Shown piece by piece: positions 29,621-40,825 of a stretch of DNA of 50,358 nucleotides. Every line of letters begins with the position of its first letter. Position 1 is the stretch's first letter. The notes under the pieces were generated by a model. That model was not told where the DNA came from and searched no databases. It saw only the letters and a list, made by a program, of their open reading frames with translations. Location of the stretch: NCBI GenBank assembly GCA_021797635.1, contig JAJZZI010000074.1, positions 1-50,358 on the forward strand, written 5' to 3'. Both the position numbers and the translations under genes were made by a program. Source of the stretch: Bacillota bacterium (GTDB lineage Bacteria; Bacillota; Sulfobacillia; Sulfobacillales; Sulfobacillaceae).

Positions 29621-30525
29621 GCTCCCACCCGAAGGGTTACCCACCCTCGAACAAATTGGTATTGTAAAACCTGCATGCCCGATTCCCGGACCACGTCTTC
29701 TATCTCGGAACATGCGTCTTCCAAGATCCCCGAAAGAATGGCCATGCCACGCACACGAGGTCTTACGCGCGGCCAGAGCTCCACGATGAGGTCGCGGATC
29801 AGGTTCATCAGGACCATGTCATAGGGCTCGCCGTCAGGTAGGTCGTCCAAGGTTCCAGGAATCACCTGCACTCGTTTAGCCCATTGATTTAATTCCAGGT
29901 TATGCCTCAGAGCGCGCACCGCCACCGGATCCGGCTCGACCGCATCGACCTGACCCGCACCCAATCTCGCCGCCGCCAAAGCTAAAATCCCCGATCCCGA
30001 GCCCAAGTCCAACACGCGTGACTTAAATGCTCCCTGTTCAAGCAACACGTCCAGGCAACTCTTGGTGGTCGGATGGGTCCCCGTGCCAAAGGCCATACCC
30101 GGATCCAAGCGGATGGCCTTGGCCGGGGCGAAAGGTGATGTGAGCCAGGCCGGAACGATCCCATAGCCATAGCGGAGCGCTATGGGTTGATAGTAGGCCT
30201 TCCAAGCGTTCTGCCAATCTTCGCTTAAAATCGAACTAATCTTTAGGGTGAACCCCTGACGCTGGCTCTTCTGGGCAATCGCCGCGGCCACACTCGGCCA
30301 CCGTTCGTCATCCGCAAAGTATGCGGTCACGTGAGGCGGCTCCGAGGGCATCCATTGGTCGTCGCCAAAGCATGGCGTTACCGCCCGTCCGTCCTCAAAC
30401 TCGACTCCTGACACGCCGAAATCAAGCAACCATGCGGCCGTCGCCTCCAGTTGCTCGGGCTCTGCCTCGATGCGCACGGCCCAATATTTTGGCGGTGTCG
30501 CTCCCTGGCTATCTGCCCAGGGCAT
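29617..30525 (-). CDS. prmA: Ribosomal protein L11 methyltransferase
   Basis: [55 protein letters not shown]. Confidence 0.95.
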
Positions 30526-31627
30526 CTTTGACCTTCTTTAAGATCCCGCGGTCGTCGGTTTGCACCGACTCATGCCGCAATTCTGCCCACTGTCGTAGCA
30601 ATTCTCGTTCTTTACTCGAAAGGGACGTGGGGACGGCTACCGTGACGTGGACATGGAGATCGCCCTTGACGGACGGACTGCCGAGACGGGGCAGGCCCAA
30701 GCGAGGTACCCGAAACACCGTTCCCGGCTGCGTCCCAGGAGGGATATGAATCGTTTCGCGGGCCCCAATACCCTCGATTTCCAATTCCGCACCTAGAGCC
30801 GCCTGAGCAAATCCGATCGACGCTTCAATGAGCAGATCTTGACCTTGACGGCGAATTCGGGCGTGAGGCTTGACGTGAATCATGACCATCAGATCGCCCG
30901 CAGGCCCTCCACGTTGACCCGCTCCGCCCTCGTTGGGAACACGAAGCCGAGTCCCGTCGTCCACACCTGCAGGAATGGTCACGGTCAACCGCTTCTCTAC
31001 ACGGACCTGTCCCCGCCCACGACACTCCCGGCAGGGGGTGGTCGCTATCTTGCCCGTTCCTCGGCAACGGCTGCAGACTTCCACCTGGCGAATCCGTCCG
31101 AGCATGCTGTCCCGAATCCGCTCCACCTGTCCACGTCCGTGACAGTGGCTACACGTTTCGATGCGCGTGCCCGGCTCGGCTTCATTTCCATGACAGTGCG
31201 GACAGACTTCATCACGCACCACGCGCAACTCTTTGTCGACGCCGGTCATCACATCTTCAAAATCAATCGTAACGTCTTGACGCAAATCTGGGCCCCGCTC
31301 CGGGCCGGGACGCCCACCCCCGCCACCTTGGCTGCCAAAGAACATGTCAAAGATGTCGCCAAATCCACCAAAACCGCCGAAGTCTTGCTGTCCAAACCCG
31401 CCTCCCGGGCCCTGATGGCCAAACTGGTCATATTGAGCCCGTTTTTGCGGGTCACTAAGCACTTCGTAAGCCTCACTCAGCTCCTTAAACCGCTCCTCTG
31501 ACTGGGAATCACCTGGGTTGGCATCCGGATGATATTTCCGGGCTAACTGCCGAAAGGCCCGTTTAATATCTTCGCTTGAGGCGTTCTGCGCTACCCCCAG
31601 CACCTCATAATAGTCACGCTTGGCCAT
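30509..31627 (-). CDS. dnaJ: Chaperone protein DnaJ
   Basis: [16 protein letters not shown]...HPDANPGD J domain; four CxxCxG-type zinc repeats. Confidence 0.97.
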
Positions 31628-31654
31628 TCCCGTTCCTCCCTATTCCGCTATGGC

Positions 31655-32263
31655 TTACGCCTCAAAGTCGGTCGTATGCTCACTAGCCGAGTCCGCGTCT
31701 TGCTGTTCTGAGTGGTCCGGGCCGGTCGAAACTTTCACTAATGCCGCCCGAAGCACCCGATCACGCCAACGAAATCCGCGCTGCAGTTCTTCAGCGACCA
31801 GGCCTTCAGCTAAGTCGCTGCTCACCTCTTGTACGGCCTCGTGTACACGCGGGTCAAAGACCTCGCCCACGGTAGCGATGGACTGCACGCCCAAACCATC
31901 GAGGGCCTCGTTAAAGCCTTTAAAGGTCATTTCCACTCCGACCCGCCATGCCTTGGCATCGCCCTCGTCGGGCATGAAGCGAAGGGCCCTCTCCAAATTA
32001 TCGTAGACGGGCAAAAGCGCATGCAACATCCGTCCAATCGTTTGTACCTCGGCTTCGCTACGCTCTCGATCCACACGGCGGCGGAAGTTCTCAAAATCCG
32101 CCTGCAAGCGAATCAGCTGCTCATACCGACTATTGGCCAATCCCTGCCAGTCCGTTTCGGTGTCCACCGTGGTTTCTGGCGCACGCTTGGTGTCTTCCGA
32201 TGGCTCCACGCTCTCATCGGGCGTCTCTTCAACTTCAGCTTGCTTTGCCTGATCTTCGGTCAT
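31655..32263 (-). CDS. grpE: Nucleotide exchange factor GrpE
   Basis: RLQADFENFRRRVDRERSEAE...LLPVYDNLERAL...VQSIATVGEVFDPRVHEAV. Confidence 0.93.
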   Translation of the reverse strand: MTEDQAKQAEVEETPDESVEPSEDTKRAPETTVDTETDWQGLANSRYEQLIRLQADFENFRRRVDRERSEAEVQTIGRMLHALLPVYDNLERALRFMPDEGDAKAWRVGVEMTFKGFNEALDGLGVQSIATVGEVFDPRVHEAVQEVSSDLAEGLVAEELQRGFRWRDRVLRAALVKVSTGPDHSEQQDADSASEHTTDFEA

Positions 32264-33416: not shown

Positions 33417-34601
33417 CTAAACGTGGTCTGTCTCAGGGCTTTTGTGCGCCTCGGCATCAATTAAGGCCGCCATCACCTGGTTGGCCAAGTCCAGCCCCCT
33501 GGCAGAGAGCCGTATGCGCTCGGCGTCCCATTGCACCAGGCCCTGGCGCTGAAGTTGCTCCCAGACGGGCCTAAACACGGTCAGGGCATCCTCGCCGAAG
33601 CGTCGCTGAAAGCGATCGCGGGAAAATCCTTCGACGGTGCGTAGGCCGAGCCAACTGTACTCTCGCATAAGATCCAATCGCTGCAAGGCCTCACCGTCTG
33701 CTCGCGGGTCCTGACGCAATGCTGTCCTCTCGATATACTCGCCAAAGTGGGGCACGTTCCACCAGCGCCGAGTGCCATCAAAAGAATGCGCCGCCATGCC
33801 AATTCCCACATAGGGGTTCATCGTCCAATAGAGGCGATTCATCCGCCCCTCATGACCAGGATGGGCATAGCTGGAAATCTCGTAGCGGTCATAACCAAAG
33901 CGGGAAAGCTCATCTCCTGCCCAATCGGACATATCGGCCACCAGATCGGATTCTACGGGAAGCATTTCCCCGGATCTGACCTTGCGATATAGGGCCGTGT
34001 GCGGCTCAATTTGCAACTGATAGAGGGAAAGATGATCGGGCTCTAGACGGATTAGGCCCTGAATCGTGGCTTGCCACTCGTCGAATCTTTGTCCCGGCCA
34101 ACCGTAAATAGCATCCAGCGAAATCGAGGCAAAGCCCGCCGATTTCGCCCAGTCTACCGTCCGGCCAATGTCTTGCGCTCGATGGCCGCGATGCATGGCC
34201 CGAAGATGATGATCCTGAAGCGCCTGAGCGCCTATCGACAGACGGGTGACCCCAGCTTGGCGAAACGCTTGCAAGCGCTCTTGGTCGACCGTTTCAGGGT
34301 TGACCTCCAGGGTCACCTCGGTGCCTAACCCACCGGTGCGCTGGCAAATCGCACCAAGGATCCGCTCCACCATGGGCGCAGACAATTTGGAGGGCGTCCC
34401 GCCGCCCAGGTATACCGCATGAGGTTCACCCTGGGGTAGGATTCGGCTCTGCCACTCCCTGACCAGTGCATCGACATAGGCAAGTTCATCGCTTGGACGC
34501 TTGCCGACGACCACCGCAAAGTCGCAGTAGGTGCAGCGGCGGGGACAAAAGGGCACATGGACGTAAACACCCCAAGCTCCTAAGTCCGCCTCACCGCTCA
34601 C
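33417..34601 (-). CDS. hemW: Radical SAM heme chaperone HemW / coproporphyrinogen III oxidase-like
   Basis: [35 protein letters not shown] start overlapping the lepA stop (GTGA). Confidence 0.92.
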
Positions 34602-36427
34602 GCGTCTTCCACGCGCAAGATAGCCATAAACGCCTCTTGCGGAATGTCGACGCTGCCTACGGACTTCATGCGGCGCTTGCCTTCTTTTTGCTTTTCGAGC
34701 AGCTTTCGCTTTCTGGTGATGTCGCCTCCATAGCATTTGGCCAAAACGTCCTTGCGTAAGGCGCGCACCGTTTCCCGAGCAATGACCTTGCTTCCAATAG
34801 CCGCCTGGATGGGCACTTCAAACATTTGCCGGGGAATCAGATCTTTGAGTTTAGCCGCCAAAGCCTTGCCTTTGGCGTAGGCTCGGTCGCGGTGCACGAT
34901 GGTCGACAAGGCGTCCACCGGTTCACCGTTCAAGAGGATATCCATCTTGACCAGATCGGCCGCCGACATCCCGCTTGGTTGGTAATCGAAGGAGGCGTAA
35001 CCATGGGTCCGGCTCTTCAGTTGATCAAAAAAGTCAAACATAATCTCACCCAAGGGCAGTCGGTAGCTCAGCATGGCGCGTTTAGGATCGAGATAGGTAA
35101 GGCCGACGTATTCTCCTCGCCGCTCTTGGGCTAGCTCCATGACCGCTCCGATGTACTCTGAGGGGGTAATAATGCTGGACTCCACGACGGGTTCGAGAAT
35201 GGACTGGATGTCCCCGGCCACGGGCATCATCGCCGGGTTATCCACGTGCACCACCCGCCCCCCTACTAACATCACCTCATAGACCACGTTGGGAGCGGTG
35301 GTAATTAAGGTCAAATCATACTCGCGTTCGAGCCGTTCTTGGACCACTTCGAGGTGCAGCAGGCCTAAAAATCCCGCGCGAAAGCCAAAGCCCAGCGCCG
35401 CCGAAGTTTCCGGTTCGAAGACGAGCGCCGCGTCGTTTAACTTCAATTTTTCCAAAGCCTCTCGGAGTCTACCGTAATCGCTAGAATCTACGGGATAAAG
35501 GCCCGAGAACACCATGGGCTGCGCGGGGCGATAGCCTGGCAGAGCCTCGCTGGCAGGGTGGTTGGCCTGGGTGATGGTATCCCCCACCCGGGTATCTTCG
35601 ACCGTCTTTATGGCCGCCGCCACGTAGCCCACTTCTCCCGCTTGCAGTTGCCCGATGGGTGTCAATCCCGGCCGGAAAACCCCCACTTCGCTGACCTCAA
35701 ACTCTTTAGCGGTCGACATAAATCGTATTCTGTCGCCCACCGCCACACTTCCGTCGACCACACGGATAAAGACTAACACGCCCTTATAGCTATCGAAGCG
35801 CGAATCAAAGATCAGCGCCCGCAAAGGGGATCCACGCGGCCCCCGCGGCGGAGGCACTTTGCTCACCACGGCAGCCAGCACCTCGTCGATACCAATACCC
35901 TTTTTGGCCGAAACGGCCAGCGCCTCAGTGCCGTCAATGCCTACTTCGATGAGTTCTTCGCGGACGCGTTCCACTTCGGCATTAGGCAGGTCAATCTTGT
36001 TAATCACGGGAATCACGGTGAGATCGTGTTCCATCGCCAAGTATAAGTTAGCCAGAGTTTGAGCCTCCACGCCTTGCGCCGCATCGATCACCAAGAGGGC
36101 ACCCTCGCAGGCGGCCAGGGCCCTTGATACCTCGTAGGTGAAGTCTACATGACCGGGAGTATCAATCAGGTTGAGTTCGTAGTCTTCCCCTTCATAGGTC
36201 CACGTGAGACGGACCGCCTGAGCCTTAATGGTGATGCCACGCTCTCGTTCCAATTCCATGGAATCAAGCAGTTGCGGAGCCATGTCCCGCTCCGCCACCG
36301 TGCCCGTGCGCTCTAAAATGCGATCCGCCAGGGTGGACTTGCCATGATCGATATGGGCGATAATGGAAAAATTTCGAATGTGCTCTGGATCCACACCAAG
36401 CCTCCTTGCCAATGTCGCGATCGCCAT
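34598..36427 (-). CDS. lepA: Elongation factor 4 (LepA)
   Basis: [80 protein letters not shown]. Confidence 0.98.
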
Positions 36428-36637: not shown

Positions 36638-37837
36638 TTAAGGCGAGGAGGGCAGTATCGTGGTGAGTGCCCTGGCCAATGCCTTGGCCGAGCGTACTTC
36701 TTCCGCCATGGTATTGGCAGGACCGCCGATTTCCACGATAAGGTCGTTGGCCAACAATTGCTGGTTGTCACGATAAGGCACGACCTCAATACCCGGGTTG
36801 CTTAAGAGCCGAGGATACTGCGCAGTCAGTGCCTGACTGAGCCGTTTGGCAAACGCCTCGTTCTTTTTCCAGTGGGGATCGGGCAAAATTTGCCCGCTGC
36901 CCACGACCAGGGTAATGCGCGCTGCCGGCAGCCCATCCACGTGCGTGGTGGTCTGACTGGCGCCCAGTGCGCTTCGCTGCACGTCTAAGAGCACCCCAAC
37001 CGAGGGGAACTGACGTAAAAGGCTCTCTGCCGTGTGGTACGCCGTATAGTAACTGGCCAGAAACCCATCCGCCATGTTGTTGACCCGCGACTGGACGACC
37101 GAAACCCCCTGGCGGTGCAAGGCGTCCGCCAGTTGCCATCCCACGTTGACAATGGTCTTTGACCAGTTGTGGCTATAGGCGGCCCGATTCCCCTGCGCCG
37201 GCATCGTGGCAAAGGATTGCATGCTGAAGGTTTGGTAAATGCCTACTCGTGGATTTTGACCCAACACCGCCCAAACCTGGTGGCCATCGCCCGGAAGGCC
37301 TTTTGCGGTCAGCGGTCTCGAGTTAGCCCTTGGGGGGATGCGCGGCTTAGGTTGGCTAAGGCGCCCTTGCGGCACCGCCTGCAAGTTGGGCAACTCCATG
37401 GCCATGAGGCGGTGCAGAGAGTCTAGCGGGGTTCCGGCGAGGTCTGCAATGCCCGCGCCCAGAAGTTGAGACCAATGGATGGGACTCCGCTTTGCCTTCA
37501 GCGCCAAATAGGGTATCCCCTCGCGAATCCACTTTTCGGCCGTGTTAAGCCGAAGACGGCTCTTGGCCAGGTCGCGGGAAAGCCACGAAAACTTCAGCCC
37601 GCGGTAGGCACGGGCGCTGACCGGGAGCACACCGCTAAAGCGTTCGGGAGTGGCCCACAAGATCGTTGCGGCGACCGCCAGGGTGGCGAGATACAGCCAT
37701 AACATGGGACGGGCTTGGTGGTGGCTTCCCCCCGGCGAACGGTCCTTAGGGGAAGGCTTCCCCGCCACTCGGTAAGGCGTTTTCGGGCGACGCTGGCTCC
37801 GCCTTGGACCTAACCAAATCACGCGTGGTTTTCGCAT
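36638..37837 (-). CDS. spoIIP: SpoIIP-family stage II sporulation protein with degenerate catalytic motifs
   Basis: Position upstream of lepA; N-terminal TM (MLWLYLATLAVAATIL); C-terminal domain aligns to SpoIIP (VGIYQTFSMQSF..., LLDVQRSALG, ARITLVVGSGQ, DLIVEIGGPANTMAEEVRSAKALA). Start uncertain; the ORF extends to 37939. Confidence 0.85.
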   Translation of the reverse strand: MRKPRVIWLGPRRSQRRPKTPYRVAGKPSPKDRSPGGSHHQARPMLWLYLATLAVAATILWATPERFSGVLPVSARAYRGLKFSWLSRDLAKSRLRLNTAEKWIREGIPYLALKAKRSPIHWSQLLGAGIADLAGTPLDSLHRLMAMELPNLQAVPQGRLSQPKPRIPPRANSRPLTAKGLPGDGHQVWAVLGQNPRVGIYQTFSMQSFATMPAQGNRAAYSHNWSKTIVNVGWQLADALHRQGVSVVQSRVNNMADGFLASYYTAYHTAESLLRQFPSVGVLLDVQRSALGASQTTTHVDGLPAARITLVVGSGQILPDPHWKKNEAFAKRLSQALTAQYPRLLSNPGIEVVPYRDNQQLLANDLIVEIGGPANTMAEEVRSAKALARALTTILPSSP

Positions 37838-38288
37838 CCGCCCCACTCCCAGTTCGGTCTCGTTGCCAGTCTCTTTCCATGCTCTATCTTTTTCCATGGA
37901 TATGGAAATAACTGGTTCATATGCCATGGACTTGCCCATTTTTTAAGCTGGCTCCGATCCGACCATCGCCAAAATCTCGGGATAGGTCTTCTAGAAACGC
38001 AAGCCACGGTGACAACCCAATCCGTCCCAGCCAAGACAAAAAGATGGGCCAAAATGCGGGCACGGACCTCCATAAGTCCGCTCACAAAAACGCGCCCCGG
38101 TCATCGCGACGCCGGATTGCGCCCTCCAGAGTGCCGTCATGCTTACGATCGGACAACTCTCTCAGCCCCACTTGCCACGCCGCGCGACTTAGGGTATCGG
38201 CCCTATCCTTCAGACTTTTAGGTCCGTACTTTGAGCTCTTTACCGCCGTCGGTTAGTTTGTTATACTTTTTACCCAGGGGGTAGAGTT

Positions 38289-38561
38289 GTGGCCAATATC
38301 AAGTCTGCAAAAAAGCGCATCCGTCAGACCAAGGTGCGGACGTTGCGTAACAAGATTCAAAAGACCATGTTCCGGACGGCAATTCGCCGCTTTGAAACCG
38401 CTTTGAGCCAGGGTGACGTGGTCACCGCTGAAGAAGCACTGCGCTTCGTATACGCTCGGCTGGATCGGGCTGCCCAAAAGGGTGCCATTCATAAAAACAC
38501 GGCAAGTCGAAAAAAATCGAGGTTGAGCCATCGGCTCAACCAGCATCGACAGGTTGGGTAG
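38289..38561 (+). CDS. rpsT: 30S ribosomal protein S20
   Basis: MANIKSAKKRIRQTKVRTLRNKIQKTMFRTAIRRFE; GTG start after AGGGGG. Confidence 0.96.
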   Translation: MANIKSAKKRIRQTKVRTLRNKIQKTMFRTAIRRFETALSQGDVVTAEEALRFVYARLDRAAQKGAIHKNTASRKKSRLSHRLNQHRQVG

Positions 38562-39577: not shown

Positions 39578-40825
39578 TCACGCCCTTGACTCCGGGTGGA
39601 CGAATCGCAGTGCGATCGATGTGCCTGAGGGTCCCGAACCGATCAGCACTTGACCATTATGGGCGAGCATGAGACGACGCACAATAATCAGCCCGAGACC
39701 TGCCCCTCCCGGCTTGGTGGTCTTGGCACTGCCAAATAGGCTGGCCAAGATTTCGGGTGACATGCCCGGACCGCTGTCTAAAATTTCCACGACGGTCATC
39801 GCGGTGCTGTGAGCGGCGCTGACGGAAATGCTCCCTAGACCGCCCATCGCCTCGGCCGCGTTTTTCAAGATATTAATCAAAATCCGATGGAGCAAATCGG
39901 GATCGGCGTAAACCATACCCAGGGGGTCCGCGCCCAAATTCAGCGCCACGTCTTTGCGGACCTGGCGCGAGATCATGCTCCACGCCGTCGCTAGCGCCTC
40001 GCTGACGGATACCCACGTGGGCTTGGGCGTTAACGGCCGAGACGCCATCAACATATCTTGGGCCACGCCATCTAGCCGTCTTACCTCACCCAGGGCCATT
40101 TGCAACACGTCGGGCGCCTGAACGTCGCCTCGCAAAGCCAGTTCAAGAAACCCCCTGATCGCGGCCAGGGGGTTACGGATTTCGTGGACCATTTCCGCGA
40201 CGGTGCTAAGCTTGAGACCCGGTCCATCGACCATAGGCCGGGGGATGCATTCAACGACCACGGTATCGTCTAAACGATGGATGCGAAGCTCATCGTCGGC
40301 CCGCACTTCGATGAGCGATCGCCCTTCGGGGCGTCCATGTACACTTCCCCATGGGGGAAGGCCAGGTACCTCTTCCCAGGACTTTCCCACCAGGTTCATT
40401 CCCGCCCACTGACAGGCCGCTCGGTTGGCCGCGATGAATGTGCCTCGACTAAAAATGGCGATGCCGGTATGAAGCGCACTCAAGCCAGAACGTTCTCCCA
40501 GGGTATCATCAATGACCGATAAGATGCCCTGGGTCTGGCCCATGAGATTTCTTACCCTAAGAAAGCGCACGAGTGACCCGTCCTCCAACGCCGCGCTACT
40601 CACGCCTTCATCGGACATCGACGCCAACATGGACCGAATCTGCTCGACTGATGCCTCCTTGCTCGACGCTCGCTGATTTTGCCACAACAACACCCCTTGT
40701 AGACTGAAAAAGGCACAGGCCACCGGCAGCCGGTCCAAGACTTCATTAGAAACCAAAAAGGCGTTGGTAAGGGTGACTCCCGGAAGTGGATTAAACGTAT
40801 ACGCTAGTGAAGTGGTGTCCCCCAA
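39578..40825 (-). CDS. Soluble PAS-domain sensor histidine kinase
   Basis: MVHEIRNPLAAIRGFLEL H box; NILKNAAEAMGG N box; DSGPGMSPE and GGAGLGLIIVRRL G boxes; no evident TM. Confidence 0.9.
   Translation of the reverse strand: MGDTTSLAYTFNPLPGVTLTNAFLVSNEVLDRLPVACAFFSLQGVLLWQNQRASSKEASVEQIRSMLASMSDEGVSSAALEDGSLVRFLRVRNLMGQTQGILSVIDDTLGERSGLSALHTGIAIFSRGTFIAANRAACQWAGMNLVGKSWEEVPGLPPWGSVHGRPEGRSLIEVRADDELRIHRLDDTVVVECIPRPMVDGPGLKLSTVAEMVHEIRNPLAAIRGFLELALRGDVQAPDVLQMALGEVRRLDGVAQDMLMASRPLTPKPTWVSVSEALATAWSMISRQVRKDVALNLGADPLGMVYADPDLLHRILINILKNAAEAMGGLGSISVSAAHSTAMTVVEILDSGPGMSPEILASLFGSAKTTKPGGAGLGLIIVRRLMLAHNGQVLIGSGPSGTSIALRFVHPESRA

Follow-up and report, generated by a model that had tools for sequence, protein, structure and literature searches.

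A SpoIIP orthologue without its active-site histidines, probably retained as a non-catalytic protein, in a SpoIID-less genome of the Sulfobacillales

In textbook spore-formers, engulfment of the forespore depends on SpoIIP, an enzyme that cuts the cell wall and whose partner enzyme is SpoIID. The stretch of DNA analysed here (50,358 nucleotides, hereafter the window) carries a spoIIP coding sequence on the reverse strand at 36638..37837, recognised as an open reading frame with a Pfam SpoIIP match, in the gene order rpsT-spoIIP-lepA-hemW-hrcA-grpE-dnaJ. Its immediate neighbours are lepA (34598..36427, reverse strand), whose synteny argues for spoIIP orthology, and rpsT (38289..38561, forward strand). 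The Bacillus-type order has the same genes, but gpr usually lies between rpsT and spoIIP, and gpr is not present in that interval of the window (37838-38288). Two other features of the surroundings can be recorded here: at 30509-32263, dnaJ directly follows grpE, the dnaK that usually separates the two in an hrcA-grpE-dnaK-dnaJ cluster being absent from it; and a histidine kinase gene (HisKA, HATPase_c; 39578-40825) with a TTG start is flanked by a divergent ABC transporter on one side and a DNA polymerase III delta gene on the other.

Where does the protein begin? The longest reading frame (36638-37939, reverse strand) encodes 433 residues from an ATG at 37939, but translation probably begins at the ATG at 37837 (Met35 of that frame), which yields 399 residues; this start is favoured because the relatives G006 and G014 align from that methionine, because a G-rich, ribosome-binding-like sequence precedes it, and because a conserved sigma-E-like element sits between the two ATGs. 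The element, a putative promoter that matches the consensus as GCATATG-N13-CATATCC (37898..37924, reverse strand), is conserved in G006, G014 and G012, in which SpoIIP is inactive, and in G008, in which it is intact. The 5' boundary used in the preliminary description is thus better supported than the upstream ATG; residue numbers below nevertheless follow the 433-residue frame.

The C-terminal half of the protein matches Pfam SpoIIP (PF07454; E 7.4e-35, 121.2 bits against a cut-off of 24.4), and the Pfam search returned no second family; the NCBIfam SpoIIP model TIGR02867 scores 122.3 bits, marginally below its cut-off of 123.15. This gene is the only SpoIIP in the genome, with no second copy carrying HTH and DIHRD. 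The preliminary description had placed a SpoIIP homologue with an intact ORF in its normal position beside lepA while allowing that the protein might belong to another amidase-like family; the frame is open, and the exclusive SpoIIP match and canonical synteny uphold the assignment. A membrane helix is predicted near the N terminus (residues 76-96; 37652..37714, reverse strand), where AlphaFold2 places a helix over the hydrophobic MLWLYLATLAVAATILWA with a pLDDT of ~87 across residues 81-90.

For the active site, our reference was a set of 94 aligned SpoIIPs with an intact site from the same class, comprising members of the order and others. Four residues, H238, E241, H321 and E403 (the last in an E-I/V-GG motif), are identical in 94/94 of these sequences, and the window protein has F, Q, Q and E at these positions, such that three of the four are replaced. 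All of the changes are on the reverse strand. Motif 1 reads IYQTFSMQSF (37211..37240), versus IYQTHSxESF in intact relatives, with Q236, T237 and F238 encoded by CAA ACC TTC (37226-37234). F238 (TTC, 37226..37228) replaces the invariant second His of HTH, which corresponds to the His of DPGHGG in Amidase_3 enzymes by hhalign alignment of the intact-SpoIIP profile to that of Amidase_3, the basis of our residue mapping; Q241 (CAA, 37217..37219) replaces the invariant Glu of HTHxxES; and Q321 (CAG, 36977..36979) replaces the invariant His of DxHR, whose hhalign partner is the His of SIHxN. E403 (GAA, 36731..36733) of EIGG is retained and is equivalent in the same alignment to the Amidase_3 catalytic Glu (EVGF). 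The codons and the retained EIGG had been read correctly in the preliminary description, and its proposal that the histidines of HTH and DIHRD had been lost holds for H238 and H321. It does not hold for Q236, the first HTH position, which is not part of the loss because Gln is usual there in almost all catalytically intact relatives from the window's family. The third change, E241 to Q, was present in the motif string that the description quoted but had gone uninterpreted. On this alignment, the loss is to be read from H238, E241 and H321.

Could another His have taken over at the metal site, as the preliminary description had also considered? We found no substitute, as the domain histidines of the window protein are unconserved even among its closest inactive relatives; the sole exception, H275, is also common to intact relatives. 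Sequencing error, another possibility it had raised for these codons, was rejected given that two independent assemblies (G006 and G014) carry identical replacements. In Clostridioides difficile SpoIIP, H142R and H222R each lead to loss of activity and sporulation (PMC6221140), and because replacement of either His has this effect, loss of activity would be expected by analogy in the window protein. A published survey describes the histidines of its SpoIIP orthologues as strictly conserved (PMC6934232), and our literature search found no report of their loss. The window protein is a SpoIIP orthologue by descent that, because of F238, Q241 and Q321, is not classed as an active amidase.

The amidase-like domain (residues 217-429; 36653..37291, reverse strand) was delimited by profile alignment, AlphaFold2 and Foldseek, and its fold is confidently predicted to be of the Amidase_3 type: pLDDT is at least 90 over most of the domain, and the best Foldseek matches of the model are the Amidase_3 structures Ami1 (probability 1.00, E 1.7e-6), Rv3717, AmiP and CwlD, with TM-scores on target of up to 0.68. 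Of the Zn-binding His/Glu/His triad of Amidase_3, both His positions, as mapped by hhalign, are Phe and Gln in the window protein; the equivalence of the triad Glu is more tentative, drawn from its place after motif 1. We looked for a solved SpoIIP structure and found none; the matches that a structure search for SpoIIP did return, centromeric histones among them, were set aside as chance matches, and a structure predicted for an intact relative from its single sequence had a mean pLDDT of 32, too low to be of use. We also considered whether a gained Amidase_3 enzyme compensates for the lost chemistry, and rejected this idea: the window's genome encodes two, both of which keep their zinc-ligand histidines, and most genomes of the family, with inactive and intact SpoIIP alike, also have two.

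The window protein is not alone. Both histidines are lost in ten of the genomes compared, which are mostly metagenome assemblies: the window's own genome (G000; 241 contigs, metagenome-type), G006, G014, G003, G012, G035, G037, G057, G090 and G098. The separate assemblies G006 and G014, from another genus, have the same motif pair as the window (QTFSMQSF, DVQR), and G003 and G012 have QTRSTESF, D[VI]NR and QIGG. Outside the window's family, the motifs are QTESHQSF/DIQR in G037, HTFTRQTF/DVAR/RIGG in the one-contig genome G035, HSISKESF/DLER in G057, HTRSMESF/DIAR in G098 and ATEGLGAY/DVER/DIGG in G090. In G035 (L040) and G037 (L041), which were inactivated separately, the Glu of the ES pair has become Gln (QTF, QSF), in parallel with the window. 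In a SpoIVA tree, the window's genome forms one clade with G006, G014, G003 and G012 (100/99), which spans three genera and whose sister, G009 plus G017, has intact SpoIIP. Parsimony on this tree requires five changes between intact and inactive SpoIIP and two for SpoIID presence. A single ancestral inactivation shared by the seven genomes with inactive SpoIIP in the order was rejected (p-AU 0.004), whereas one event joining G035 with the window's (f1) clade was not (p-AU 0.07), and a fair statement from these trees is that both histidines were lost independently four to five times. Separately, G089 (L170), a SpoIID-less genome, has HTD in place of HTH with intact DLHR and EVGG, possibly an intermediate or a case of Asp as a metal ligand.

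What of the partner enzyme? SpoIID is absent from the window's genome, which is 96% complete, with neither a PF08486 nor a TIGR02870 match. By PF08486 it is absent across the whole order, except for a weak long-domain match in G041; since PF08486 by itself calls SpoIID too freely, picking up long SpoIID-domain proteins in families f31 and f32, TIGR02870 was added, and all inactive genomes fall below its cut-off. Twelve sampled genomes score above it, and SpoIIP is intact in all but G125, whose examined SpoIIP copy has a broken frame and was excluded from the count. SpoIID absence falls in two tree clades, namely f37/f38 and a 30-row clade (98/98) that contains all ten double-loss genomes. In f37, one SpoIIP copy reads QTD/DVHAD and the second is intact; G104 and G105 (L172-L175) each carry a pair of copies, of which one reads QTD and DVHAD while the other keeps TTH..ERY and DVHRDD intact. 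The f38 genomes (G106-G110) have no SpoIIP or SpoIID match, with SpoIVA present in G106 and G109, and are candidate spore-formers without either engulfment hydrolase. Loss of SpoIID is permissive for SpoIIP inactivation, not forcing, because the inactivations all lie in SpoIID-less genomes yet intact SpoIIP persists in many SpoIID-less (Sulfobacillus-type) genomes, those of the G002 and G009 type among them; resting on two SpoIID losses, the association is suggestive and not statistically strong.

Other sporulation genes accompany the inactive SpoIIPs. SpoIVA is present in 10/10 double-loss genomes and SpoIIM in 8/8 of those searched (all but G090 and G098), including the window's genome (G000:C173, E 5.3e-16); the window itself encodes YqfD. 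These genes suggest that the window's organism sporulates. G036, the sister of G037, has none of SpoIVA, SpoIIM and SpoIIP, which is how sporulation loss looks. Twelve alignment columns reach at least 97% identity in the 94 intact sequences, and we checked them in the ten double-loss proteins, all ten of which have an intact reading frame. Eight non-catalytic columns are kept in 7-10 of the ten; E241 is kept in 4/10 and E403 in 6/10, neither having been used to define the set, and H238 and H321 are at 0/10 by definition. In the two closest inactive pairs, domain dN/dS is 0.30 (G006/G014) and 0.19 (G003/G012), whereas intact pairs range from 0.03 to 0.15; wider inactive pairs are near saturation. 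By these measures, selection on inactive SpoIIP is relaxed yet purifying. The suggestion in the preliminary description of a retained pseudo-enzyme, and not a dead gene, is borne out by dN/dS below 1 and by the invariant residues and sporulation genes kept; its "rewired engulfment factor" goes a step further, into inference.

We consider it probable that the window protein is a SpoIIP orthologue devoid of amidase/endopeptidase chemistry that survives as a membrane-anchored protein without catalysis. The loss of chemistry itself is well supported, because three of the four active-site residues are gone, with retained E403 the point against a complete loss of chemistry; the retained role is what we infer. 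In the scenario that we propose, SpoIID would have been lost first, removing the enzyme that acts on glycan strands once SpoIIP has denuded them. SpoIIP chemistry would then have become dispensable, and SpoIIP would repeatedly have turned into a pseudo-amidase, which may persist as a membrane-anchored SpoIIM partner that binds to, or is positioned at, peptidoglycan during engulfment; it is probably a SpoIIM-associated, peptidoglycan-binding positioning protein. The driving force of engulfment would come from peptidoglycan synthesis, with any wall cutting left to general amidases. Membrane migration in B. subtilis requires peptidoglycan synthesis (PMC5158138), and by analogy synthesis is likely the driver here. 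In C. difficile, inactive SpoIIP E309A still modifies the engulfment phenotype when both spoIID and spoIIP are mutated, so a non-catalytic effect of SpoIIP exists in vivo (cited in PMC6934232).

The alternative that fares best, although we regard it as unlikely, is slow decay: once SpoIID was lost, the SpoIIP module became nearly useless, and the inactive proteins, doing little, are on their way to gene loss. A slowly decaying gene would also give the relaxed dN/dS, here about doubled relative to intact pairs, and genomes that have SpoIVA and are without SpoIIP do exist, namely G106 and G109 of f38 and G093 of f31, from which SpoIIP is wholly absent. However, dN/dS is well below 1, all ten frames are intact with non-catalytic invariant residues kept, and the losses date far back, one clade that shares them spanning three genera, a long time for an unselected gene; moreover, the genome without SpoIVA and SpoIIM, G036, is also the one without SpoIIP. 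We give considerably less credence to the proposal that the protein is still an enzyme that uses Glu403 and other residues for metal-free or altered hydrolysis, such as endopeptidase activity only. Glu403 is kept in the window protein, and ICP-MS of C. difficile SpoIIP, which is active and has both histidines, detected neither zinc nor any other bound metal; yet C. difficile needs both histidines for activity and sporulation (PMC6221140), the inactive clade has no conserved replacement His, and sister lineages have lost the Glu too (QIGG in G003 and G012, RIGG in G035, DIGG in G090). Least probable of all is a remnant gene in a non-sporulating organism or an assembly artefact, for which the 241-contig, metagenome-type assembly and the lack of gpr beside rpsT could speak; against it, SpoIVA, SpoIIM and YqfD are present, the frame is open and two other independent assemblies have the same replacements.

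If the non-catalytic reading of the window protein is correct, what would it mean? Always found without SpoIID, a SpoIIP with its catalytic residues replaced suggests that the standard wall-cutting machine is not indispensable for engulfment. The repeated loss of the same residues in lineages that lack SpoIID and keep sporulation genes is a natural experiment that sets the chemistry of the engulfment machine apart from its mechanics, and it predicts a separable structural role for inactive SpoIIP. A bolder version, which we put forward tentatively and would not quite bet on, is that a whole branch of endospore-formers engulfs without a dedicated peptidoglycan hydrolase, with SpoIID lost, SpoIIP a purely mechanical, SpoIIM-linked tether to peptidoglycan, and catalysis lost independently about five times.

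How does the window protein compare with known systems? It resembles SpoIIP (PF07454), the engulfment amidase/endopeptidase, in its catalytic-domain profile match, N-terminal membrane helix, lepA/hemW/hrcA synteny, sigma-E-like promoter and co-occurrence with SpoIIM, but differs in that both essential histidines and the Glu of HTHxxES are replaced and SpoIID is absent from the genome. The Amidase_3 N-acetylmuramoyl-L-alanine amidases (CwlD, Ami1/Rv3717, AmiP) share the predicted fold and active-site position, but their zinc-ligand histidines are matched by Phe and Gln. Sulfobacillus has already been reported to lack SpoIID, and its engulfment signature, without SpoIID and SpoIIQ, is similar in that SpoIIM and SpoIIP are kept; that paper scores SpoIIP as present, and we found no mention of catalytic residues in its accessible text (PMC7924749). 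A precedent is SpoIIQ/SpoIVFA of the Bacilli, where a degenerate LytM (M23) domain likewise puts a dead hydrolase fold to use as a localisation or structural module in the same process (PMC3533761); the fold and family are different, however, and the degenerate form is standard there, whereas the SpoIIP family is otherwise catalytic.
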